Positions 27,250 through 39,852 of a stretch of DNA of 39,852 nt are shown in pieces. The stretch comes from Phycisphaerae bacterium (lineage in GTDB: Bacteria > Planctomycetota > Phycisphaerae > UBA1845 > PWPN01), in contig JAGNEZ010000004.1 in NCBI GenBank assembly GCA_018003015.1, forward strand, positions 13,478 to 53,329. Reading direction: 5' to 3'. The notes under the pieces are model-generated. The model was given only the letters and a program-made list of their open reading frames with translations, was not told the origin of the DNA and did no database searches. Positions within the stretch are counted from its first letter, which is position 1; every line of letters begins with the position of its first letter. The translations under genes were made by a program, and so were the position numbers.

Positions 27250-27269
27250 TGATTTTCATGGCTTATACT
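27241..27269 (+). promoter_or_regulatory. Promoter of the efflux operon (leaderless)
   Basis: -35 TTGAAA (27241-27246), a 17-base spacer and -10 TATACT (27264-27269). Five bases separate the -10 from the ATG at 27275, so the transcript should begin at or next to the start codon. The -35 lies inside the palindrome. Confidence 0.65.
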
Positions 27270-27274
27270 TGGGC

Positions 27275-28330
27275 ATGAGACACAGGGTGCTGTTGGTACT
27301 GATCGTCCTGGCCGCGGCCTGCTCTGCCGCGATGTGGTGGTGGCAGACCTGCGACGGACGCGTTTCCGACAGGATTGTGCTTCGCGGCAACGTTGACCTG
27401 CGACAGGTGGACTTAGCGTTCAACAATGCGGAGCGGATCGCCGCGGTTCTGGTCAGAGAGGGGGAGGTTGTCCGGCGGGGTCAAGTCCTGGCCCGGCTCA
27501 ACACCTCCCGCCTGGAGCCCCAACTCGAGGAGGCCGAGGCTCAGGTGGCCGCCCAGCGCCAGGTGGTTCAGCGTCTTCGCAACGGGAGTCGTCCGGAGGA
27601 GATCGCGCAGGCTCGGGCCAGCGTGGACGCGGCCAAGGCCGAAGAGGTGAATGCGCGTCGCCATTATGATCGACTCAGGAACCTCGTGGGCGTGAACGCC
27701 GCGGCGCCGCTGGAACTGGATGACGCCAGAGTGGCCCTGGATGCGGCTGGGGCAAGGCTCCTGGCCGCTCAGAAGGGACTGGAGCTGATTGTGGCGGGTC
27801 CCCGCCGGGAAGAGGTTGCGGAGGCGGAGGCGCGCCTGCGTGCTGCCGACGCCGCTGTCGAGTTGCTGCGCCGGTGCATCGCTGACGCACAACTGGTGGC
27901 TCCCGTCGATTCGATTGTTCGGTCGCGGCTTCTGGAGCCCGGGGAAATGGCTTCACCCCAGCGCCCGGTGTTTTCTCTGGCCGTCACGGATCCGAAATGG
28001 GTGCGGGCCTACGTTTCCGAGACCGATCTTGGGCGCGTGTCCTCCGGGATGGGGGCTCGTGTTGGCGTGGATAGTTGGCCGGGCCGGGAATTCGAGGGAT
28101 GGGTAGGCTTCATTTCCTCGGTTGCCGAGTTCACGCCTAAGACGGTGCAGACCGAGGAGCTCCGGAGCAGTCTCGTTTACGAGGTCCGAGTCTTTGTGGA
28201 GGACCCTGGTGACGAGTTACGTCTTGGGATGCCCGCCAGCGTACACCTGCTTGTCCGCCCAGTGGGCGGAACGACCTCCCAGCCAGGTACGATCGAGGCC
28301 TCGCCTCGAGGCATGGGAGGCGCGCCGTGA
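27275..28330 (+). CDS. ybhG: HlyD-family periplasmic adaptor of an ABC-2 efflux pump, YbhG-like
   Basis: This is a 351-residue membrane-fusion protein. I start it at the ATG at 27275 (a TTG at 27269 lies inside the -10 box). Residues 1-24 are an N-terminal membrane anchor (LLVLIVLAAACSAAMWWW). Residues 33-75 and 200-230 form the lipoyl-like halves (VLVREGEVVRRGQVLARLN and LVAPVDSIVRSRLLEPGEM). Residues 80-195 are an Ala-, Glu- and Arg-rich coiled-coil hairpin (EEAEAQVAAQRQVVQRLR, LAAQKGLELIVAGPRREEV). The beta-barrel follows (DPKWVRAYVSETDLGRV, ARVGVDSWPGREFEG). It should link the inner-membrane ABC-2 transporter to an outer-membrane channel. Its stop overlaps the GTG of the ATPase gene by four bases, so the two are translationally coupled. 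Confidence 0.88.
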   Translation: MRHRVLLVLIVLAAACSAAMWWWQTCDGRVSDRIVLRGNVDLRQVDLAFNNAERIAAVLVREGEVVRRGQVLARLNTSRLEPQLEEAEAQVAAQRQVVQRLRNGSRPEEIAQARASVDAAKAEEVNARRHYDRLRNLVGVNAAAPLELDDARVALDAAGARLLAAQKGLELIVAGPRREEVAEAEARLRAADAAVELLRRCIADAQLVAPVDSIVRSRLLEPGEMASPQRPVFSLAVTDPKWVRAYVSETDLGRVSSGMGARVGVDSWPGREFEGWVGFISSVAEFTPKTVQTEELRSSLVYEVRVFVEDPGDELRLGMPASVHLLVRPVGGTTSQPGTIEASPRGMGGAP

Positions 28331-30090
28331 CGGTTACCGATGTCCCGCTCGTGATCGGTCGCGACATCAGAAAGACCTTCCGGAGAGGGACCGGTGAGCT
28401 GACTCACGCGCTGACCGGCGTGTCCCTGGCTGCCGAGCGTGGAGCGCTGACCGCCCTGGTGGGCCCCGACGGGGCGGGGAAGACCACCCTTCTGCGGTTG
28501 GTGGCCGGACTCCTCACCGCGGATTCGGGCGAGTTGAAGGTCCTGGGTATTGACGTGGGGGCCGACCCTCACCAGGTTCAGACTCGCGTTGGCTACACGC
28601 CCCAGAGATTTGGGTTATATGAGGATCTCACCGTGCGGGAGAACCTCGAGCTGTATGCCGCCATGCACGGTGTGACCGAACATGAGAAGCGAGAGCGGTA
28701 CCCGAGACTGCTCGAGATGACGGCTCTCGGTCCCTTTTTCGGCCGCCTCGCCGGACGGCTCTCGGGTGGAATGAAGCAGAAGCTCGGGCTGGCCTGCACA
28801 CTGATTCGCTGGCCGGAACTGTTGCTCCTGGATGAGCCAACGGTGGGAGTAGATCCGCTGTCTCGCCGTGAGCTCTGGCACATCATTCTCGATCTCGTTC
28901 GCCGGCAGGGTCTCACGGTGTTGTTGAGCACATCCTATCTGGACGAAGCGGAGCGGTGTGGCCACACGGTGGTGCTGCATCGTGGCCGGGTGCTGGCCAG
29001 CGGTCACCCCGCCTGCGTGCGGGCCATGGCCGAAGGTCGGACGTTCCTGGCCCAGGTCCCGGCAGGATGGAGTGCCCGAACCATGCAGGCACGGCTACTG
29101 GGGGATGCGTCGATTCTCGATGCGGTTCCTCAGGCTGGCCGAGTGCGGTTCGTGAAGAACGGGTATGGCGCCGCCGCCGAAGACTCCCTCCTGGTGAGCG
29201 CCGCCGTCGAGCCTGTCCCGGCACGATTCGAGGACGGCTTCATGGTCCTTCTTCAGGAATCGCGGGTGGAGGCGTGGGCCGGACCGGCAGCAGCCATCGA
29301 GCATCTGCCGGCCTTGCCGAGCGAAGAGGTGCTGGTTGAGACTCGGGACCTGGTTCGCCGATTTGGAGGTTTCACAGCGGTCAACCACGTCAGTTTCGAG
29401 GTGCGCCGCGGCGAGATATTCGGGCTTCTCGGTCCCAACGGCGCGGGCAAGACCACGACCTTTCGTATGCTTTGCGGGCTGCTGCCCGCGACGGGAGGGA
29501 GGTTGCGGGTGGCTGGCGTGGATCTGCTGCGGGCGCGAGCGTCCGCCCGGGAGCGAATCGGCTATGTGGCCCAGAAGTTCTCGCTCTATGGACACTTGTC
29601 AGTACTGGAGAACCTGCAGTTCTTCTCCAGCGCGTACGGTCTGCGAAGCGCTCGCCGTCGGGAGCGGATCGACTGGGGATTGCGGGAGTTTGAACTGGTC
29701 GATTTTGCCCACGTGCCCAGCGCCCAGCTGCCCGGGGGCTACCGGCAACGGCTGGCCATGGCAGCGGCCCTGCTCCACGAGCCCGAGATCCTGTTTCTTG
29801 ACGAGCCAACCAGCGGAGTTGACCCCCTTGCCAGGCGTGACTTCTGGCGCCGGATCACGGCCTTTGCCGAGCAGGGCGTCACCGTGATCGTCACCACCCA
29901 CTTCATGGAGGAGGCGGAGTACTGCGACCGGATTGTGATCATGGATTCGGGTCGCGTTCTGGCTTCGGGAACACCCGCTCAGGTCCGGGATCGCGCCGGG
30001 GCGCGCGGGGGGCAGGAGCCCACCATCGAGGATGCATTCATCGCGACCGTACAGGAATCGCGGTCGATGGCGGTGGGAGGTGGGACGTGA
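28327..30090 (+). CDS. ybhF: Double-domain ABC transporter ATPase, YbhF-like
   Basis: This is a 587-residue protein with two nucleotide-binding domains. Domain 1 (residues 5-230): Walker A GPDGAGKTT, signature LSGGM, Walker B LLLLDEPTVGVDP, but the H-loop reads LLSTSYLDEAE, with Ser for the switch His. Domain 2 (330-570): Walker A GPNGAGKTT, signature altered to LPGGY, Walker B ILFLDEPTSGVDP, and an intact H-loop VTTHFMEEAE. It powers the two ABC-2 permeases that follow. Start: a GTG with GGGAGG upstream, overlapping the adaptor stop as GTGA. The length and double-ATPase form match E. coli YbhF. Its own stop overlaps the next GTG in the same way. The two altered motifs fall in the same composite ATP site. 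Confidence 0.92.
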   Translation: MTVTDVPLVIGRDIRKTFRRGTGELTHALTGVSLAAERGALTALVGPDGAGKTTLLRLVAGLLTADSGELKVLGIDVGADPHQVQTRVGYTPQRFGLYEDLTVRENLELYAAMHGVTEHEKRERYPRLLEMTALGPFFGRLAGRLSGGMKQKLGLACTLIRWPELLLLDEPTVGVDPLSRRELWHIILDLVRRQGLTVLLSTSYLDEAERCGHTVVLHRGRVLASGHPACVRAMAEGRTFLAQVPAGWSARTMQARLLGDASILDAVPQAGRVRFVKNGYGAAAEDSLLVSAAVEPVPARFEDGFMVLLQESRVEAWAGPAAAIEHLPALPSEEVLVETRDLVRRFGGFTAVNHVSFEVRRGEIFGLLGPNGAGKTTTFRMLCGLLPATGGRLRVAGVDLLRARASARERIGYVAQKFSLYGHLSVLENLQFFSSAYGLRSARRRERIDWGLREFELVDFAHVPSAQLPGGYRQRLAMAAALLHEPEILFLDEPTSGVDPLARRDFWRRITAFAEQGVTVIVTTHFMEEAEYCDRIVIMDSGRVLASGTPAQVRDRAGARGGQEPTIEDAFIATVQESRSMAVGGGT

Positions 30091-31238
30091 GTTCAGCCCG
30101 TCGCTACCTGCGAGCGTCGGCGCCGGGCTGGACCCGCCGGGTTGGGGCCCTGATTTGGAAGGAGAGCCTTCAAGGCATCAGGGACCCCAGCAGTGTGGCC
30201 ATCGGCGTGGTATTGCCGCTCGTCCTGATACTCCTCTTCGGCTATGGCCTTTCGCTGGACGTCGAGCACGTGCCGCTCGCGGTGGTGCTTGAGGACACGT
30301 CGTCAGAGGCCTGCGATCTGGCGGCGCGGTTTCAGCTGTCACCCTCGTTTGACGTGTGGCGTGTGACGTCCATGCGGCATGCGCGAGATCTCATGGTGGC
30401 CCGAAAGGTGGATGCGATTGTCCGGATCGAGCCGGATTTCGCCCGGCATTTGGCTCAGGGCGATGCGGAGGTGCAAGTCCTGGTGCATGGAACGGACTCC
30501 AACCGCGCCCGGATCATCCAGGCCTACGCCCAGGCCGCAGTCGGCCAGTATGGCGTGCGTTGTGCGGCAGAAGGGAAGACCTCGCTGGCGGGACCGGTGC
30601 AGGTTCAGAGCCGGATGTGGTTCAACGAGGCCAACGAGAGCCGCCACTTCCTGGTGCCGGGGCTGATCGTCCTCATCATGACGTTGATTGGGGCGCTGTT
30701 GACCGCATTGGTGATGGCCCGGGAGTGGGAGCGGGGAACACTCGAAGCCCTGTTCGTCACGCCGATCCGGGCCGGGGAGATCATCATTGGCAAGACTCTT
30801 CCCTATTTTGCGTTGGGCATGATCGGGCTTGCGCTGTGCGTACTCTCGGCCCGCCTGCTCTTTCACGTGCCGTTTCGCGGGTCGATAGGAGTCCTGGTCA
30901 GTGTTTCCATGCTCTATCTACTGGTATCACTGGCCATTGGCCTGTTCATCTCATCCGCGTTCAAGAGTCAGTTCGTAGCCAGCCAGATCGCGCTGCTGGC
31001 GACGTTCATGCCCGCAACCATGCTCTCGGGTTTTCTCTTCGATCTGCAGAGCATGCCCGCGGTCGTTCGCGTGACCACCTACGTCTTGCCCGCCCGATAC
31101 TATGTCGCGCTGCTCCAGACGTTGTTTCTGGCTGGGAACGTCTGGAGCGTCATCCTGCCCAACGCGGGCATGCTGGCGGTGATGGCGGTAGTTCTTCTGG
31201 CTCTAACGCGGCGGATTACGCGCAAATCCCTGCAGTGA
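30087..31238 (+). CDS. ybhS: ABC-2 type permease, YbhS-like
   Basis: This is a 383-residue integral membrane protein. The GTG start has GGGAGG upstream and overlaps the ATPase stop (GTGA). It opens with a cytoplasmic helix (IWKESLQGIRDPSS) and the first membrane span (VAIGVVLPLVLILLFGYGL), then a large periplasmic domain of about 140 residues (ALVHGTD-type strand region, RMWFNEANESRHF). Five further spans follow: VPGLIVLIMTLIGALLTALV with the conserved AREWERGTLEALFVTPI coupling helix, then ALGMIGLALCVLSARLLF, VLVSVSMLYLLVSLAIGLFI, MPATMLSGFLFDLQSMPAVV and a last C-terminal span. The LSGFLF-x-SMP motif and the ERGT segment match the YbhS/YhhJ group. It pairs with the next gene to form the drug-export channel. 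Confidence 0.9.
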   Translation: MSSARRYLRASAPGWTRRVGALIWKESLQGIRDPSSVAIGVVLPLVLILLFGYGLSLDVEHVPLAVVLEDTSSEACDLAARFQLSPSFDVWRVTSMRHARDLMVARKVDAIVRIEPDFARHLAQGDAEVQVLVHGTDSNRARIIQAYAQAAVGQYGVRCAAEGKTSLAGPVQVQSRMWFNEANESRHFLVPGLIVLIMTLIGALLTALVMAREWERGTLEALFVTPIRAGEIIIGKTLPYFALGMIGLALCVLSARLLFHVPFRGSIGVLVSVSMLYLLVSLAIGLFISSAFKSQFVASQIALLATFMPATMLSGFLFDLQSMPAVVRVTTYVLPARYYVALLQTLFLAGNVWSVILPNAGMLAVMAVVLLALTRRITRKSLQ

Positions 31239-31246
31239 GGGTCGGC

Positions 31247-32365
31247 ATGATCTCGAGTGTTCTTCGGATTCTGGCCCTTGTGCGGAAGGAACTCCTGGCG
31301 GTCCTGAAGGATCCTCGCGGCCGGTTCAGCATTCTCGTGCCGCCGATGCTGCAGTGTCTCCTGTTTGGCTACGCGGCCACTTTCGACCTGAACGACGTCA
31401 CCTGTGCCGTCCTGGACCAGGACCGCAGCCCCGCGTCTCGGGACCTGCTGGCAACGCTCGACGGGTCGCGGGCCTTTCGCCGAGTGGCCAGCCTGCAGCG
31501 GGCAGCGGACGTGAACCGGGCTATTGACGAACGTCGAGCTCTGCTCGTGATCCGGATCGGTTCCGGCTTTCAGCGAAAACTGAATTCGGGTCAGCCCGTG
31601 GATGTGCAGGTGGTGGCGGACGGGCGAAATTCGAACACCGCCGGGATTGCCCTCGGCTATGTCTCGGAGATCGTCGAGACATTCAACAGCCGGTGGCGAG
31701 CGGCCCACGGCATGACCAGCCGGACGATTCGGGTTTCCACGCGAACCTGGTACAACCCCAACCTCGAGAGCCGCTGGAACATGATCCCTGCTCTGATCGG
31801 GACCTTGACCATGCTCCAGACCCTCCTGCTGACCGCTATGTCCGTGGCGCGAGAGCGAGAGCAGGGGACCTTTGACCAGTTGCTGGTAGCCCCTTTCCGG
31901 CCCGCTGAGATCATGGCCGGCAAGGCCCTGCCGTCGATGATCGTCGGGGCGGTTCAGGCTACCAGCATTCTCCTCATCGCCCAACTGTGGTTTCGGATTC
32001 CATTCGCTGGGTCCCTCGCGGCGCTGTACGTGGGCTTGATTCTGTTCTTGCTCGCGGCCGTCGGGGCCGGCCTCCTGATTTCGGCGTTTGCCGCCACCAT
32101 GCAACAGGCAATGCTCTTTACGTTCGTGCTGGTCATGCCATTCACGCTTCTGTCCGGCCTAGCCACGCCGATCAGCAGCATGCCCACGGTGCTGCAGTAC
32201 GTGACCCTGTTCAACCCGCTCCGCTATGCCATCCAGATTGCCCAGCGGGTGTATTTGGAGGGTGCGGCACTTGACCTGCTGATGCCCAATCTGTGGCCGC
32301 TGGCGGCGATGGCTGTGGTTTCGCTCTCGGTTGCCGCGTTGATGTTCCGACACCGCCTGGAATGA
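31247..32365 (+). CDS. ybhR: ABC-2 type permease, YbhR-like
   Basis: This is a 372-residue permease, partner of the preceding one. The ATG at 31247 has GAGGG just upstream and lines up with the YbhR family start; a GTG at 31235 overlapping the previous stop as GTGA is the alternative, mirroring the two earlier junctions. It has an N-terminal LVRKELLAVLKDPRGRFSIL helix, a first span (VPPMLQCLLFGYAATF), a periplasmic domain (NRAIDERRALLVIRIGSGF, TRTWYNPNLESRWNMIP) and five C-terminal spans with REREQGTFDQLLVAPF, FTLLSGLATPISSMP and FNPLRYAIQIAQRVYLEG. The operon order adaptor, double ATPase, permease, permease is that of E. coli ybhGFSR, reported as a drug efflux system. No outer-membrane channel gene is included. 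Confidence 0.9.
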   Translation: MISSVLRILALVRKELLAVLKDPRGRFSILVPPMLQCLLFGYAATFDLNDVTCAVLDQDRSPASRDLLATLDGSRAFRRVASLQRAADVNRAIDERRALLVIRIGSGFQRKLNSGQPVDVQVVADGRNSNTAGIALGYVSEIVETFNSRWRAAHGMTSRTIRVSTRTWYNPNLESRWNMIPALIGTLTMLQTLLLTAMSVAREREQGTFDQLLVAPFRPAEIMAGKALPSMIVGAVQATSILLIAQLWFRIPFAGSLAALYVGLILFLLAAVGAGLLISAFAATMQQAMLFTFVLVMPFTLLSGLATPISSMPTVLQYVTLFNPLRYAIQIAQRVYLEGAALDLLMPNLWPLAAMAVVSLSVAALMFRHRLE

Positions 32366-32456: not shown

Positions 32457-34598
32457 TCAGGCCTTGCGGATCGTGGTGATGAAACGCGAGACTCGCCGGT
32501 AGAGGTGAATACCAATCGACTCCCGACGCGCCGGCAGGCAGATCGTTGCCGTCATCCCATGGCCCAGAGTGAGGGTGTCGTCGTGTGCCAGGCGGACCAC
32601 GAGCAGAAAATAGGGTTGCATGGCTTCGCCACTGTCAGCCGTGACGGCGATGTCGCCGCCCGCTACGTGTGTCAGCGTGGGCAGCTCTATTCGGCGGTCG
32701 CCTGCCGCACTCACCCGCTCGATGACGCCGGTCATGATCCTGTTGGCTTCGCTGGCGACCCGGCACTCGACCATTTGCCCGACTCGTGGACGGACGGCGA
32801 ACACATCATCCTCACTGACCAATGCACGAACCTCGGCGGCCCCGGAGACGATCGTGGCGATCTCGCCGCCTGCCGGTATGTGGCAGCCCACGTCGGTGGG
32901 CCGAAGGCATGTGACCAGATGGCCGTCGGCTGGTGCGTACACCTCGAGAGCCGCCGCCTGCTGAGTTCGCCTTTGAACTTCCTGCCGGTACGCGGCCACC
33001 CGCTGCTGCTCCTCGATCGCCTTCGCGGGTTCGCTCAAGCGGTACGCATCACGTCGCACCTCGGCTGCCACCAGGCGGGCTTGAGCTTCCGCAAGCTGCT
33101 CTGTGACGGAGTCATTGCTGAACTGGACAAGGCGGACGCCGGTCGTGACGGCCTGACCGCTCTGGGCGTTGACGGCCACAACAAAGCCGGGCGTTTCTGC
33201 GCGAACCACGGTTTCCTCGCCCGCAAAAACCACACCTGATGTTTGAACGGCCAGTCTCACAGGAATGGTCGCCGCCAGGCAGGGAGCTCCGACAATGGCT
33301 GCCACACTGAGTGCGACGGCACGCCGGCGCACCGGCGCCGTTTCCTCCGCCCGCCACAGGTAGTCCGTCAGCTGCTTCAGGAGCCTTGCCAGCATGTATC
33401 CAAGGTACACCACGCCCAGAGTCAGGCCGACCATGAAGAACCGCGAGGCAAGCACGGTCGTGATCGCGATGAGAACAAGGACGCGGTAACAGGGGGCCAG
33501 CAGTCCGTAAGTCAGGAGGATCAGACGCAGCCGCCGTTCCTGGATTGGCTCCTGCCGAGGAATGCCCAGCAGCCATTTCTTCAGCATGGCGGCCACGTAC
33601 TCGTTCGCCCGCTGACCGAGATTGGCGATCTCGCAGAGATCGCACAGCACGAAGTACCCGTCGTACCGCATGAGCGGGTTGATATTGAACACGACCGTCG
33701 CCGCGCTGGCCAGAAAGATGACATTGAACGCAGTCGCATTCAGCAGGCCGGGCGGCGTCATGGCCCAAACGAACATGGCCATCGACGAGACGATCGTCTC
33801 GAAGTACATGCCGGCGAGGCAGATCACGATTCGCTTGCGCCGGTCGGTCAGGCTCCAGGATGCGGAAGCATCGACGTACGCGCAAGGGACTCCGGCTACG
33901 AGGTACACGCCGAGCGTGGGCACGTGCAGGCCATAGTACTTGCACGCGTAGGCGTGACCGAGTTCATGGATCAGCTTCAGGCCGACGAGCGTGAACCACA
34001 TGATCACCAGATTCTGGGCGGCCAGAAGACCGGACAGGGGGTCCAGTAACTCGTGACGGCGGGAGAAGCCGGTGCAGACCGCCCCGACAACGAGCATGAG
34101 CCAAGCGACAAAGAACCATCGGCTGAAGAGCGGTCTTGCGAGCCGGAGGGTCCGGCCAAGGAATGCATCGGGGTTCCAGAATGGTATATCGAGGTAAACG
34201 AAACTGAACACCCTGGCCCGCTGCTTAGCTGAACGCCGGGCTTTGTACCTGCGATAAAGCGACCGGCCGTCGGTGATGGGCAGGTTGAGGAAACTCGCTC
34301 GATGAAGGAAGAGGATGAACTCGTAGAAGCGGTCCTCCTGGGTGTCCAGCAGATCACCGCTGCTGACCAGGGTTTCGAAGATCTTGCCGAGCGGCCGGTT
34401 CGAGTCCAGGCTGACGAGAACACGGTAGTCGGCAAGGCTGAAACAGTGGCTCTGTCCGGTCACCGGATCGCGCACCACATAGGACGGCGCGCCGCGGAAC
34501 ACATGCCGACTGATCTCGAGGTCGCGGCGAAGGTCCACACGCGTCTGCCGAAGCCTCGCGGCGAGATTCGGAATCGAATTGGAGGAGTCTACAGCCAT
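32457..34598 (-). CDS. M50 intramembrane zinc protease fused to an HlyD-type adaptor
   Basis: This is a 713-residue protein. Residues 35-115 resemble the PqqD-like winged-helix fold (FSLADYRVLVSLDSNRPLGK cut by IFETL). From about 150 come multiple membrane spans with the zinc motif HELGHA at about residue 211 and the third ligand motif NINPLMRYDGY near 306-316: a complete M50/site-2-protease core. Residues 455-713 form a periplasmic HlyD-like part: FAGEETVVRAETPGFVVAV, an Ala/Glu coiled coil (QLAEAQARLVAAEVRRDAY), VYAPADGHLV and a barrel region. Its ATG overlaps the end of the GAF-HlyD gene by 10 bases, so it is the last gene of that operon. Such fusions are known in planctomycetes and some proteobacteria beside large surface proteins; their role is not established. 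It could cut or guide an exported partner at the inner membrane. Confidence 0.87.
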   Translation of the reverse strand: MAVDSSNSIPNLAARLRQTRVDLRRDLEISRHVFRGAPSYVVRDPVTGQSHCFSLADYRVLVSLDSNRPLGKIFETLVSSGDLLDTQEDRFYEFILFLHRASFLNLPITDGRSLYRRYKARRSAKQRARVFSFVYLDIPFWNPDAFLGRTLRLARPLFSRWFFVAWLMLVVGAVCTGFSRRHELLDPLSGLLAAQNLVIMWFTLVGLKLIHELGHAYACKYYGLHVPTLGVYLVAGVPCAYVDASASWSLTDRRKRIVICLAGMYFETIVSSMAMFVWAMTPPGLLNATAFNVIFLASAATVVFNINPLMRYDGYFVLCDLCEIANLGQRANEYVAAMLKKWLLGIPRQEPIQERRLRLILLTYGLLAPCYRVLVLIAITTVLASRFFMVGLTLGVVYLGYMLARLLKQLTDYLWRAEETAPVRRRAVALSVAAIVGAPCLAATIPVRLAVQTSGVVFAGEETVVRAETPGFVVAVNAQSGQAVTTGVRLVQFSNDSVTEQLAEAQARLVAAEVRRDAYRLSEPAKAIEEQQRVAAYRQEVQRRTQQAAALEVYAPADGHLVTCLRPTDVGCHIPAGGEIATIVSGAAEVRALVSEDDVFAVRPRVGQMVECRVASEANRIMTGVIERVSAAGDRRIELPTLTHVAGGDIAVTADSGEAMQPYFLLVVRLAHDDTLTLGHGMTATICLPARRESIGIHLYRRVSRFITTIRKA

Positions 34599-36463
34599 AG
34601 ACGCAGCCGCACGTAATCAACTGCCGAGTGGAACATCACCCACCATGCCGGACGCCGGCCGACGGAGATTCGGGCGACACCCTCCATGCCCGGACGGGCC
34701 CAGGCGGGGGCATTTTCGAGTTCGGCCTCGGCGACGAAAGCCACTTCTCCGTCCCGCACCACCGCATTGGGTTGCAGGCGGCTCAATTGGAATTCGTACG
34801 AAGTTTCCGGACGGGCATGGCAGGCGTAGCGTCCCGACAAGCCCGGGCGGATACCCGAAATCGCCGCCTCGGGCACGCGAAGCTCGAGCTTCCAGCCCTT
34901 CAAGGGGGCAATCCGGAAGAGCGGCGCGCCCTGGGACATGATGCTGCCGACCTTCGTCCTGAGATCACCCTCGATCACTACGCCGTCCATTGGACTCCGG
35001 ATGGTCGCTCGCTCAATCCGGCTTTCGACGACCGCAAGCTGCGCGCGAATCAGCTCTACCTGGGTTTCAGCAAGGCGAGCATCCACCGGTGTCTTCGTCG
35101 CCTTGGCCCGCTGGGCCTCCTGCTCGGCTACCGCGAGTTCCGCCAGGCGCTCCGCCCGCTGAAGGCCAAGTTCCCGCTCGTCCAGCTGGCACAGTATCTC
35201 GCCCTTGGCGACACGATCGCCGGCCGTTTTCCTGACATCCGCGAGGGTGGCATCGTAAGGCAAGCTCACATGTCGCAACTGCCCTGGTTGCACGGTGAAG
35301 TTGACGTACACGGTGTGCTCCAGCGTGCCGAGCACCAACCAGCACGCCAGGGCCGCGCCCGCGGCCAGGGCGATCCTGGCGCCGTGATGCCTCGGGTTCG
35401 CCAAGGCACGGCACACGCCCCCAACGACTTCGACCGCATGTCTCGGCAGACTGCGGCTCGCCTTCTGGAGCAGCAGGAACGCCGCCCCAAAAGGTTGGAC
35501 CGTCTCACTGATCTGTCGAATGACTTCCGGGGAAAACGATGCCGATTCCCTGTGCTGAATGCTGAGAATCGCAACGCAACGATCCTCGATTCTCAGCGGG
35601 ATGGAGCTGACTGGTGCGTTCTTCGCCACCTGGTGCCAACTCCGGTGGAGGCAGAAGCCGACCCTCTCTCCCTCGGACGACAAGGGTTGCTGGGCCTGGT
35701 AGACGATCGGGCGGCCGAAATCGAGACATTCCTCCATGGCTTGCTGGATCGCCAGCATTCCGGGACTGTCGCCATGGATCTCGTCCTGGCCGGAAACGGA
35801 CAGGATGCGAACCCGCCGGCGACGCACGATGCCGATCGCCACGTGCTCGCAGCCGAGGTTGTTCCGCAGCGAGTTGGCAATCGTAAACGCCAGTTCCTCG
35901 GGGGTCTCGCACGTTGCCGCCTTGGCGAGGGCCCGGTTCTGGCCCATGGTTCGCCTCGCTCCGGAGACGCGATCCTTCTCGATTCCACGTGCTGCGTGCA
36001 TCATCAACGCGGCGGCGGACTCCATCATGGTGACACGGACCCGTACGTCCTCCTCGCTCATGCGGGCCACAAGCGAAAGACCCCCGACCACCGTTCCTTC
36101 GGCCCCGCGAACGGGGACGGCGATCAGGCCGAGCTGGAGCGATGAGTGGCGGGCGCTGAGGAGTTTCGCCTGGGGTTGTCCTGAACCGATGGCGATGGTG
36201 AGGTAGTCCTCGACCATGGGGCGCCAGAAGTTGGGGTCGGTGTTGCCCGTATGCTGCTGGTCCTCGATGATGTCCGATGCAAACTGAATGGAAATCGCTG
36301 CAAACGGGCTTTCCGTCTCCCTCGCGATGCACTTGAGGGCTTCAGAGAAGAAGGCCTGCCGCGACACGCAGTCCGCTGCTATGGCCAGGATGGTCTCGTG
36401 CAGATTCGACCGTGCTGCCTTAGCATTGCCCGGCGTCGTGATGGTGGGCGTGTCTGTACTCAT
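34589..36463 (-). CDS. Double-GAF sensor fused to an HlyD-type periplasmic adaptor
   Basis: This is a 624-residue protein. I start it at the ATG at 36463, 34 bases after the PilZ gene; the open frame extends 65 residues upstream, but these are antisense-like and overlap PilZ. No strong ribosome site is visible. Residues 20-150 form a first GAF-like domain (FFSEALKCIARETESPFAAI, GLIAVPVRGAEGTVVGGLSL); residues 170-330 a second (ELAFTIANSLRNNLGCEHVA, PVSSIPLRIEDRCVAILSIQ, FSPEVIRQISETV). One membrane helix follows at about 362-384 (IALAAGAALACWLVLGTL). Residues 390-600 are the HlyD part: LPYDATLADVRKTAGDRVAK, a coiled coil (ELAVAEQEAQRAKA) and IRSPMDGVVIEGDLRTKVGS. The layout puts a small-molecule sensor in the cytoplasm and an export adaptor in the periplasm, in one chain. 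Ligand unknown. Confidence 0.84.
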   Translation of the reverse strand: MSTDTPTITTPGNAKAARSNLHETILAIAADCVSRQAFFSEALKCIARETESPFAAISIQFASDIIEDQQHTGNTDPNFWRPMVEDYLTIAIGSGQPQAKLLSARHSSLQLGLIAVPVRGAEGTVVGGLSLVARMSEEDVRVRVTMMESAAALMMHAARGIEKDRVSGARRTMGQNRALAKAATCETPEELAFTIANSLRNNLGCEHVAIGIVRRRRVRILSVSGQDEIHGDSPGMLAIQQAMEECLDFGRPIVYQAQQPLSSEGERVGFCLHRSWHQVAKNAPVSSIPLRIEDRCVAILSIQHRESASFSPEVIRQISETVQPFGAAFLLLQKASRSLPRHAVEVVGGVCRALANPRHHGARIALAAGAALACWLVLGTLEHTVYVNFTVQPGQLRHVSLPYDATLADVRKTAGDRVAKGEILCQLDERELGLQRAERLAELAVAEQEAQRAKATKTPVDARLAETQVELIRAQLAVVESRIERATIRSPMDGVVIEGDLRTKVGSIMSQGAPLFRIAPLKGWKLELRVPEAAISGIRPGLSGRYACHARPETSYEFQLSRLQPNAVVRDGEVAFVAEAELENAPAWARPGMEGVARISVGRRPAWWVMFHSAVDYVRLRLWL

Positions 36464-36497: not shown

Positions 36498-36905
36498 TCA
36501 GGCGAGCAGCGCTGCCGGCAACTCGACAGGCGCGAAGAAACGGAAACCCACCTCGAAGGCGTTCTCGCGAATGAGGCTGCAGCGCACACAGCGCGCAAAC
36601 GTGATCGGCAGATCAAGCTCCTGTCGGTTGAAGCTGAGCAGGTAGATGTCACCAACACCGCAGGGCTCCGGCAGCAGCACCTTGCCGCCGCCCTCCGAGA
36701 TGTCCGCGGTCATTCCGTTTACCTGGTGTTTGTTCCGCTCGCTCGAGTTGCCCGGTTGGAGCGTTACCGCCGTCCTGATCTGGAAGCGAGTGTGACTCCT
36801 CTGCCGACGTACCTCCTCTGCGGTGTTGCGTTCGAGATCCTCGACGAACTCCAGGGCGTCGGTGATGTCTTTGGATGCCGGTCCGTTTTCAAAAGCCTCG
36901 AACAT
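36498..36905 (-). CDS. PilZ-domain c-di-GMP-binding protein
   Basis: This is a 135-residue protein. The ATG at 36905 has GAGG about nine bases upstream; its start overlaps the end of the adaptor gene 36889-37920 by 17 bases, so it sits inside the operon. A helical N-terminus (DALEFVEDLERNTAEEVRRQ) is followed by the PilZ domain from about residue 33: RxxxR with Arg36 and Arg40 (RSHTRF), then DxSxxG with Asp68, Ser70 and Gly73 (ADISEGGG). Both are the c-di-GMP-binding motifs, and both are intact. The ending VGFRFFAP is the usual last PilZ strand. It is most likely a cytoplasmic c-di-GMP receptor acting on the adaptor proteins encoded on each side. That link rests on position only. Confidence 0.87.
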   Translation of the reverse strand: MFEAFENGPASKDITDALEFVEDLERNTAEEVRRQRSHTRFQIRTAVTLQPGNSSERNKHQVNGMTADISEGGGKVLLPEPCGVGDIYLLSFNRQELDLPITFARCVRCSLIRENAFEVGFRFFAPVELPAALLA

Positions 36906-37920
36906 CTTCGCCTGCCTCGCTGCTTCGCCCTCGTGCGGTCCTAGCCGCCGTGTCCGCCGCTGGCTGCGAGGTCGTCGCGAGCCTTGACGGAGCCGACGTA
37001 CTGACCGTCGACGCGGTCTTGGTCGTGAAGTCCACGGCAACCATAAGCCCGGCGATCCAGCCTCCGTCCTCGTTGGGGACCTCCAGCCGGATCCTCACCG
37101 TCTGGCTCCCGGCATCGGCCACGGGACCCACGGACTTGACCGTGCCCGTGCGTGTTTCCCATCGTGAGTCGATCGGCTTGACTTCGGCTCGTTGGCCGTG
37201 GCGTGCCGCTCGTCCCAAGGCCAGCGGACAGTCCACATTGACCAGGAGCGTATCGGTCTGCTCAAGGCGAATCACTGACTCGAGCTCCTCGACACTCTCG
37301 CCCACTTCCTTCAGCCTGGCGGTGACGAAGCCGGAGAACGGCGCCCGCAGTTCGCGCTGGGCAAGGAGTTCACTGTTGATCTGATAAGTCTGTTGGGCTT
37401 TCAGGTGGTCGTGCTTGGCGATCTCTTGGTTGAGGCGCGCCGCATCGAGCCTGGCCTGCGCTTCGCGCAACTCGCGATCGGATGCCGCGGTCTCTTTGTT
37501 CAACTTGGTGAGCCGATTCACTTCGCTCTGCGCGTATTCGAACTCGACTCGAGCAAGGTCGATTTTCAGCGTGGACTCGGCATCAAGGCGCGCACACTCT
37601 GTCTGAGCCTTCTGAACAGCCATGTCCAGACCCACAAGAACGTCACCCTTCCGGACGTGATGGCCTTCTTCGGCCGCGATGATGCAGATACGGCCTTTCT
37701 GGAGACTCGCCAGACTGGCCTTTCGCAGGGGGGCTGTGAAACCGACAGGCAGTTTATCGGCCGCGCCGTTTGCCGTCGACACTGACGCCGGCCTCTCTCG
37801 TTCGTCGGCCAGAACCGACGGGTGCAGCGGGATCACGGCTAGCGCGCAGGGTGCGGAAAGCGCAAGAACAGCTCGTACGCAGAGTTGTCTCCGTCGGTCC
37901 AAGGTACCGCTAATCCTCAA
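36889..37920 (-). CDS. Periplasmic adaptor (HlyD/RND membrane-fusion family)
   Basis: This is a 343-residue protein. The only workable start is TTG: I use 37920, with GGAAGG seven bases upstream; a second TTG at 37902 is possible. The N-terminus has a signal or anchor segment (AVLALSAPCALAVIPL, cleavage near residue 38). Residues 57-100 and 190-215 are the lipoyl-like halves (KGRICIIAAEEGHHVRKGDV and LRAPFSGFVTARLKEVGESV). Residues 100-185 form a long coiled coil (LDAESTLKIDLARVEFEYAQ, LREAQARLDAARLNQEIAKH). A barrel and membrane-proximal part follow, and a Thr/Ser/Ala-rich tail of about 45 residues ends RSSEAGEDVRGF. It is the first gene of the four-gene operon. Partner channel and pump are not visible in the window. 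Confidence 0.82.
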   Translation of the reverse strand: MRISGTLDRRRQLCVRAVLALSAPCALAVIPLHPSVLADERERPASVSTANGAADKLPVGFTAPLRKASLASLQKGRICIIAAEEGHHVRKGDVLVGLDMAVQKAQTECARLDAESTLKIDLARVEFEYAQSEVNRLTKLNKETAASDRELREAQARLDAARLNQEIAKHDHLKAQQTYQINSELLAQRELRAPFSGFVTARLKEVGESVEELESVIRLEQTDTLLVNVDCPLALGRAARHGQRAEVKPIDSRWETRTGTVKSVGPVADAGSQTVRIRLEVPNEDGGWIAGLMVAVDFTTKTASTVSTSAPSRLATTSQPAADTAARTARGRSSEAGEDVRGF

Positions 37921-38214: not shown

Positions 38215-39852
38215 TCATTCGCGGGAGCTTCTTCCACCGACTCGCTCTTGCGATCCCGACGACCCGTCACCGCCCCAACTTCCCGTTAGGTTGCCCAATC
38301 GATGCACCATGCCCCACAGCATGGCTAGCAGGCCGCCATCCGACTCACCACCCCTCGCGGCCGAGCCCGTTACGGCTGCCACCTCGGTCTCGTCGCGCGG
38401 ATGCGCACCCGCCGGCGTGTCGGGCGCCGACCCCGCAGCGGCCGGCGTCAGACCCCGGACGTCGCGCACCTCGAACACGGACTCTACACGTCGCTCGGCA
38501 TAGCCTTTCGGCATATCCGCAGGTTCGACCTTCTGAGCCGGTACGGAAAGCCGCAAATCCAGACCCTGGCCGAGTTTTCGGTCCCCATCCATGTTCACCA
38601 GCAAGTCGGGGGTGGTGACGCCGGCGATGAAGCTCGTGACCGCTGTGGCTGCGGCCATCTCACGGCCGATCGTGGCCGGGTGTAATAGCATAGTCTCGCT
38701 GACGGGAATAGGAGCAGGCGGCTTGCGATCGGCGGCCTCAGCTGGTTCCAGGGGATTCGCATCTGCCAGTGCCGCTTGGCCGAAACCGTCTCTGCCCCCT
38801 CCCCTGAAACCGGCCTGAGCGTCGACCCGCTCATCGCGAGGGTCGGTGATTCCCGTCATGCCCGTCGTGACGTCAGTGCCTGTGTTTGGGCCGGCCATGG
38901 CTTGGGGTGCCACCCCGCCGACAGGCAATGTGGAGGTCACCGCTTGGGTCGGATCCGGGACAACGGTGTCGGTCGGCCATAGTCTCGGCGAGGCGGAATG
39001 GGGTATCGCCAGCTCAATGGTAGGCGGTTGATGAATATCAGCCACCGGCAGTGGCGATGCCGCGGCCGGCAGAGGTTGCGGCTCGATAAAGCCGACCGGA
39101 GGCTCCGCATCTGTCACCGGTGGGACCAGGACATCGGGGGATTGCGTCACGTCCGAGGAAAGGGGCGGTGTTTCGGGCGGCGGCACAGGGGCAGGCGAGT
39201 CGTCTGGCTCGGCTTCCGGTACCGCTGCAGGATCCTCGACCTCGTTCACAGCAACAATTGCGCTGGTCGTCGCCTGTCCGCCTTGGCCATCGCTGACCTG
39301 ATAGGTGAACGTGTCGGTGCCGCTGAAGTTGGCCTCTGGTGTATAGGTGAACGAGCCGTCGGCATTCAAGGCCACATGGCCGTGCTCGGCATCCTGGATG
39401 AGGCTGGCCGACAGGGTGTCACCGTCCAGGTCGGTGTCGTTGGCGAGCACGCCCTGGGCGGCATCCACACTGAGCGTCCCATCCTCGTCCACGGTGTGCG
39501 AATCCGAATCGGCGACCGGTGCATCGTTCGTCGGCGTGACCGTGACCATGGCGGTCGCGGTTGCCTGCCCACCCTGGCCATCGCTGACCTGATAGGTGAA
39601 CGTGTCGGTGCCGCTGAAGTTGGCCTCTGGTGTATAGGTGAACGAGCCGTCGGCATTCAAGGCCACATGGCCGTGCTCGGCATCCTGGGTGAGGCTGGCC
39701 GACAGGGTGTCACCGTCCAGGTCGATGTCGTTGGCGAGCACGCCCTGGGCGGCATCCACACTGAGCGTCCCATCCTCGTCCACGGTGTGCGAATCCGAAT
39801 CGGCGACCGGTGCATCGTTCGTCGGCGTGACCGTGACCATGGCGGTCGCGGT
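38215..39852 (-). CDS. C-terminal part of a large cadherin-like (tandem-95/VCBS) surface protein
   Basis: The frame enters from the right edge with no start in view; 545 residues are visible. The first 200 residues are two full copies of a 97-residue calcium-binding cadherin-like repeat plus the end of an earlier one: NDAPVADSDSHTVDEDGTLS, GVLANDTDLDGDTLSASL, NADGSFTYTPEANFSGTDTF and YQVSDGQGGQA. This is the tandem-95 or VCBS pattern of giant adhesins. Then follow about 200 residues rich in Pro, Ala, Glu and Asp, a probable wall-spanning or disordered linker, and a C-terminal part (MLLHPATIGREMAAATAVTS, LLVNMDGDRKLGQGLDLRLS, GLLAMLWGMVHRLGNLTGSW). No RTX nonapeptides, LPxTG or PEP-CTERM tail is present. 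The gene precedes the M50/HlyD operon and is its likely client, by inference. Confidence 0.83.
   Translation of the reverse strand, partial: TATAMVTVTPTNDAPVADSDSHTVDEDGTLSVDAAQGVLANDIDLDGDTLSASLTQDAEHGHVALNADGSFTYTPEANFSGTDTFTYQVSDGQGGQATATAMVTVTPTNDAPVADSDSHTVDEDGTLSVDAAQGVLANDTDLDGDTLSASLIQDAEHGHVALNADGSFTYTPEANFSGTDTFTYQVSDGQGGQATTSAIVAVNEVEDPAAVPEAEPDDSPAPVPPPETPPLSSDVTQSPDVLVPPVTDAEPPVGFIEPQPLPAAASPLPVADIHQPPTIELAIPHSASPRLWPTDTVVPDPTQAVTSTLPVGGVAPQAMAGPNTGTDVTTGMTGITDPRDERVDAQAGFRGGGRDGFGQAALADANPLEPAEAADRKPPAPIPVSETMLLHPATIGREMAAATAVTSFIAGVTTPDLLVNMDGDRKLGQGLDLRLSVPAQKVEPADMPKGYAERRVESVFEVRDVRGLTPAAAGSAPDTPAGAHPRDETEVAAVTGSAARGGESDGGLLAMLWGMVHRLGNLTGSWGGDGSSGSQERVGGRSSRE
39255..39852 (-). 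repeat. 291-bp tandem repeat coding for cadherin-like domains
   Basis: The unit at about 39546-39836 repeats the unit at about 39255-39545 with a period of 291 bp (97 codons). Away from the unit edges I count only two or three base differences. The last 12 bases of the window begin a further copy. The total copy number cannot be known from this window. Confidence 0.9.

Follow-up and report, generated by a model that had tools for sequence, protein, structure and literature searches.

A PilZ-associated clade of GAF-HlyD adaptor proteins in Planctomycetota and its proposed link to giant LEPR-XLL adhesins

Introduction

Fusions of GAF domains with HlyD domains have been on record since 2015. Kamneva, Poudel and Ward described GAF proteins with HlyD and biotin_lipoyl domains that are encoded beside an M50-HlyD protein, an HlyD protein and a secondary SecA_DEAD protein. 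This locus, whose role they called unknown, occurs in Planctomycetes, Verrucomicrobia, Proteobacteria and other groups (PMC4452313). A precedent for the combination of a cytoplasmic ligand domain with a periplasmic adaptor is Alg44, which consists of a PilZ domain, a transmembrane (TM) helix and a membrane-fusion protein (PMC8461298). Here, we analyze a homologous locus in a 39,852-nucleotide stretch of DNA (hereafter the window) from contig C4 of a planctomycete assembly that totals 6.86 Mb. Its central gene encodes a 624-residue GAF-GAF-TM-HlyD protein, referred to as GAF-HlyD. Both loci have the GAF and HlyD protein, the M50-HlyD protein and the HlyD protein in common, whereas the clade of the window carries a PilZ gene in place of that for the secondary SecA. 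A preliminary description of this DNA had considered the fusion unusual for HlyD adaptors; both precedents show that it is not without parallel (PMC4452313, PMC8461298).

Among the literature searched on LEPR-XLL proteins and GAF-HlyD fusions, only the 2015 article proved relevant, an earlier description elsewhere being possible, and no later role for its locus family was found. PilZ and cadherin-type adhesins are not mentioned in its text, nor is any LEPR-XLL cargo in the sections examined (PMC4452313). As far as this literature reaches, a PilZ-type clade devoid of SecA and its link to LEPR-XLL proteins are undescribed.

A PilZ-type clade without secondary SecA

Among 42 GAF-HlyD homologues from the phylum, nine (including that of the window) are neighbored by a PilZ gene and 22 by a SecA gene, while none has both. 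The nine PilZ-neighbored proteins make up one side of a branch with a support of 100/100, and in this clade the PilZ gene lies immediately upstream of the GAF-HlyD gene. A profile generated from these nine proteins was searched across 298 genomes of the class, with PilZ-type proteins scoring above 400 bits and sister proteins below 350 bits. PilZ accompanied 20 of the 22 held-out loci above 400 bits and SecA none of them; in both PilZ-less loci, the contig breaks off at the GAF gene. Conversely, SecA was present in 16/18 of the sampled held-out loci below 350 bits and PilZ in 0/18. TolC is found in some sister loci.

On the genome-wide level, 13 of 18 PilZ-type genomes harbor a single SecA, the long housekeeping copy. 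One or two extra, shorter SecAs were detected in the remaining five, each of which also encodes a second, SecA-type GAF-HlyD protein whose gene shares a contig with a short SecA. The window genome has one SecA, the housekeeping one. Because the secondary SecA_DEAD is lacking, its locus is a variant rather than a standard member of the family reported in 2015. The earlier statement that no ATPase stands between ligand and adaptor is sound for the PilZ-type clade, but fails for the family, whose usual neighbor is a secondary SecA.

Giant adhesins and the LEPR-XLL motif

A giant repeat protein is another recurring feature, of which the window contains the C-terminal part:

38215-39852, minus strand: giant RTX/tandem-95 adhesin, C-terminal part, with Big_9/Cadherin_5 and tandem-95 repeats; the gene runs upstream past the window to about C4:59.0 kb

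Near the N-terminus of this adhesin, which lies in the stretch L039, a regular expression located the degenerate motif LEPRILRSVTWTD (LEPRILRS) at about C4:58636. In relatives, the LEPR-XLL model NF012209 of NCBIfam was matched. Wherever the contig reaches their beginning, the giant open reading frames (ORFs) of PilZ-type planctomycete loci start with LEPRI(L/M)LS(A/T)TW (L008, L064, L087, L124 and L130) or, in the case of L134, with the variant LEQRILLSATW. The motif is likewise present in the locus-adjacent giant ORFs of four further genomes (G155, G364, G503 and G427). Within the order of the window, LEPR-XLL matches over the cut-off were obtained for 14 of 15 genomes with GAF-HlyD, the window genome being the miss, and for 1 of 20 without it, with two genome families (f95 and f97) represented on both sides of the comparison. 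This co-occurrence ties the GAF-HlyD machine to LEPR-XLL proteins. The sole match over the cut-off among the 20 order or family genomes without GAF-HlyD (G509:C118:12472-12507) may be spurious or may point to a GAF-HlyD locus that was overlooked.

A comparable arrangement is found on alphaproteobacterial plasmids, where the gene for GAF-HlyD comes just after one of giant size (about 4,000-12,800 codons), with M50, SecA or TolC nearby; all four records searched (4/4) feature the LEPR-XLL motif in the giant protein. On the 571 kb plasmid NZ_CP085155.1 (L081), LEPR-XLL giants are encoded by two frames, about 12,800 and 12,960 codons long. Directly upstream of GAF-HlyD, in the position taken by PilZ in the window's clade, four of five plasmid loci encode a DUF3467 protein. 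The Thalassospira marina plasmid (L085) represents a third arrangement, comprising a LEPR-XLL giant, DUF3467, GAF-HlyD, an M50-type adaptor, HlyD and TolC, with no SecA annotated within the stretch. By eye, the putative RTX-type cargo has no obvious classical signal peptide.

Architecture of the GAF-HlyD protein

The protein is composed as follows:

34589-36463, minus strand: GAF-GAF-TM-HlyD protein, 624 amino acids plus stop, ATG start, ORF confirmed
35969-36406, minus strand: GAF1, divergent, residues ~20-165; based on a family profile, secondary structure, Foldseek and Pfam matches of relatives
35480-35908, minus strand: GAF2, residues ~186-328; based on Pfam GAF_2/GAF and conservation
35318-35374, minus strand: single TM helix, residues 364-382; based on hydropathy, N-terminus cytoplasmic
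34649-35281, minus strand: HlyD-type periplasmic adaptor (barrel-sandwich, coiled coil, beta-barrel), residues ~395-605; based on Pfam HlyD_D23 and HlyD_3

GAF2 is recognized by Pfam GAF_2 at residues 186-328 with a score exceeding the gathering threshold (E 6e-8), and the same region matches Pfam GAF (E 4e-6). For GAF1, Pfam gives no match in the window protein itself, while among the GAF1 segments of 26 relatives five match Pfam GAF and one matches GAF_2 (2e-7). Searched against the PDB, the GAF1 family profile retrieved the GAF domain of NifA (9qq6, E 8e-4) and NLH1 (4g3k, E 0.0015). A whole-protein structure prediction from three sequences was poor, with a predicted local distance difference test (pLDDT) score of 50, so that use was restricted to the order of secondary-structure elements and to a fold search of the N-terminal part. 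With the low-confidence model of residues 1-345 (pLDDT 52), Foldseek returned almost exclusively GAF-fold proteins, the best matches being GAF structures of phytochrome, PDE and CyaB2 as well as LasR-type GAF-like domains; the tandem-GAF proteins PDE6, PDE5A and CyaB2 were matched across about 400 columns. Since a comparison of the GAF1 and GAF2 profiles gave no significant match, the evidence for GAF1 is weaker than that for GAF2. Two GAF-like domains ahead of the helix, as proposed in the preliminary description, are thus borne out by different means, the expected profile match of the N-terminal half to GAF having been obtained with Pfam for GAF2 and not for GAF1.

The only hydrophobic helix (residues 364-382) keeps its position in nearly all of the 42 homologues. 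It is preceded by a mean of 4.2 and followed by a mean of 1.7 lysine and arginine residues (K+R) per 20 residues, which places the GAF pair in the cytoplasm and the adaptor in the periplasm. Both the single helix and the location of the GAF half inside the cell thereby agree with the initial proposal, for which an extracytoplasmic GAF half would have been fatal. Downstream of the helix, barrel-sandwich/lipoyl half-motifs and a coiled coil are present, and Pfam HlyD_3 (residues 487-592, E 7e-15) and HlyD_D23 (residues 395-566, E 2.5e-12) confirm the full adaptor that had been predicted. The GAF-GAF-TM-HlyD architecture is conserved phylum-wide and, therefore, is neither a chance nor an assembly fusion.

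Operon and neighboring genes

On the minus strand, the giant adhesin gene is followed by those for an HlyD adaptor, PilZ, GAF-HlyD and M50-HlyD:

36889-37920, minus strand: HlyD/RND-type adaptor, 343 amino acids; Pfam HlyD_D23 (E 9e-15), TIGR01730 above cut-off
36498-36905, minus strand: PilZ-domain protein, 135 amino acids; Pfam PilZ (E 2.9e-9), with RSHTR (RxxxR) and DISEGG (DxSxxG)
32457-34598, minus strand: M50 metalloprotease (HELGH) fused to an HlyD adaptor, 713 amino acids; Pfam M50 and HlyD_3, PqqD-like N-terminus by homology

Overlaps of 10 nt between the M50-HlyD and GAF-HlyD genes and of 17 nt between the start of the PilZ gene and the HlyD adaptor gene suggest a single operon. The order HlyD-PilZ-GAF-HlyD-M50-HlyD is conserved and, even though contig ends intervene, a giant repeat protein accompanies it in 20 of 31 loci. 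No other gene family is common to more than a few PilZ-type loci, antisense shadow frames excepted. The HExxH active-site motif of the M50 domain is kept in 30 of 31 PilZ-type members, and a PqqD domain, which is a peptide-binding fold in systems for ribosomally synthesized and post-translationally modified peptides, was detected in plasmid homologues of M50-HlyD. The two motifs for binding of cyclic di-GMP (c-di-GMP), RxxxR and DxSxxG, are retained in 28 of 29 PilZ relatives; the PilZ protein of one clade member (L067) has neither.

A separate convergent operon (27269-32365, plus strand) encodes an HlyD adaptor, a tandem-ATPase ABC protein and two ABC-2 permeases, and by eye resembles YhiI/RbbA. 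It is near-identical in L007 and essentially unconserved beside other PilZ-type loci, its ABC protein (28327-30090) being matched in at most one other sampled locus. As these genes are not conserved with the GAF-HlyD locus, they were rejected as the missing transporter. One PilZ-type genome (G057) encodes a ParA/MinD/BcsQ-like ATPase between PilZ and GAF-HlyD (L061:7772-8551), a possible alternative NTPase partner. Upstream of the giant adhesin gene, L039 (9474-17091) carries sulfatase-like genes and one for a TPR protein, which do not belong to the conserved set.

Proposed function and alternatives

Judged from sequence, GAF-HlyD may be a subunit of an inner-membrane complex linked to c-di-GMP that serves to export or anchor a giant LEPR-XLL adhesin and would represent a split counterpart of Alg44, a proposal to which we give an even chance. 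The M50-HlyD protein, which would combine a peptide-recognition domain, an intramembrane protease and an adaptor, could recognize the LEPR end of the adhesin, while GAF-HlyD, M50-HlyD and the free HlyD adaptor would jointly build a periplasmic conduit that probably docks to a TolC-type outer channel encoded elsewhere. TolC-family genes do occur in the window genome, none of them on the contig of the window. Upon binding of c-di-GMP, the PilZ protein may then influence the GAF pair in the cytoplasm. Relayed by this pair via the single helix, the signal would reach the adaptor and thus open, close or stabilize the adhesin route, as in a protein-secreting, split counterpart of Alg44. The giant RTX/tandem-95 LEPR-XLL adhesin is the putative cargo, its export included, and it is likewise a prediction that PilZ binds c-di-GMP and contacts the GAF part, as is the direction in which control would run. 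Conceivably, the PilZ protein even replaced a SecA-like motor, leaving a c-di-GMP-gated machine for LEPR-XLL adhesins that has no motor gene and passes its signal via GAF-GAF-TM-HlyD into the conduit; this more specific version is tentative, and we rather doubt that it holds in full.

Several points count against a c-di-GMP-linked export or anchoring complex. No ATPase is conserved in the PilZ-type loci and no motor for export was identified there, nor is a TolC conserved in the PilZ-type locus. A search of the whole window genome with NF012209 gave no match, its motif being too degenerate. Adjacency of the PilZ and GAF-HlyD genes does not prove contact of their products, and the Fisher values for the held-out PilZ and SecA contrasts (about 3e-9 each) overstate independence, as the compared genomes are related.

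With regard to the role of the GAF pair, it could alternatively be a non-sensing scaffold that recruits SecA in one type of locus and PilZ in the other. The partner gene indeed switches cleanly between the types while the GAF-HlyD scaffold persists, but such a switch is equally compatible with sensing, and pure docking appears unlikely, albeit worth serious consideration. Conversely, the GAF pair might itself bind a metabolite or gas and change the adaptor directly, with PilZ as a separate regulator. Residues E245, D248, P289 and G225 of GAF2 are invariant across the PilZ clade, and E245 even in 25/25 sampled homologues of both PilZ and SecA type. A docking surface on GAF2 would conserve identical residues, however, and the invariant positions would fit ligand binding and docking alike. 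In addition, the NKFDE cyclic-nucleotide motif is present in 0/31 PilZ-type members, and GAF1 is poorly conserved, with a mean column identity of 38% versus 54% for GAF2. We therefore regard a direct switch as unlikely. Action of a cytoplasmic small molecule via the GAF pair, the core of the preliminary description, is possible and unproven; the PilZ protein with its intact c-di-GMP motifs is more likely to be the cytoplasmic ligand sensor.

A different reading would place control after secretion, in that the PilZ-type set may hold an adhesin exported by another transporter, or release it through M50 in analogy to the c-di-GMP logic of LapA. Because no ATPase is conserved in the PilZ-type loci, a role in retention or protease-mediated release is a live rival, with which the locus without a motor gene, the conserved M50 active site and the presence of PilZ would all agree. 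Three HlyD-type adaptors per operon better suit a conduit, though, and the sister loci include SecA and in some cases TolC, which renders this reading doubtful. Finally, an ordinary drug or metal efflux adaptor with incidental GAF domains is highly improbable: homologues are automatically annotated as 'efflux RND transporter periplasmic adaptor subunit', but no RND, MFS or ABC pump is conserved alongside, the RND_mfp and HlyD models stay under the cut-off, and M50-HlyD and a giant adhesin are the constant companions.

Beyond the window, the co-occurrence with LEPR-XLL provides a testable cargo for the locus family and a testable machine for the LEPR-XLL motif. The clean exchange of PilZ for SecA separates regulation from motor function and predicts that a secretion adaptor is controlled by a second messenger through direct transmembrane coupling. 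Planctomycetota commonly attach to surfaces, and little is understood of how they export proteins; if true, the proposed complex would offer an entry point to the route by which giant adhesins arrive at the cell surface.

Comparison with known systems

The LapA/LapD/LapG system exerts c-di-GMP-linked control over a giant adhesin and involves a protease. The window system would share this logic, whereas the HAMP/EAL part of LapD and the LapG protease are absent from it. Type I secretion of RTX adhesins (HlyB/HlyD/TolC) is similar with respect to the HlyD adaptors, the RTX-type cargo and the TolC of some sister loci. It differs in its dedicated ABC transporter, as the conserved set of the window has none and no ABC gene is common to the PilZ-type loci, and in the cargo signal, which here would be an N-terminal LEPR-XLL motif. 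PelD, which also contains a GAF domain, regulates an export apparatus at the inner membrane in response to c-di-GMP; in contrast to GAF-HlyD, it has no HlyD part. The likeness to Alg44, a subunit of the Pseudomonas alginate polymerase, extends to a cytoplasmic regulatory domain, one TM helix, a periplasmic membrane-fusion domain and c-di-GMP input via PilZ. However, PilZ is fused to the membrane-fusion protein in Alg44, whereas in the window it is encoded by a separate neighboring gene and the GAF domains are fused instead. Moreover, the cargo of Alg44 is a polysaccharide, while that of the window's system is likely a giant protein.

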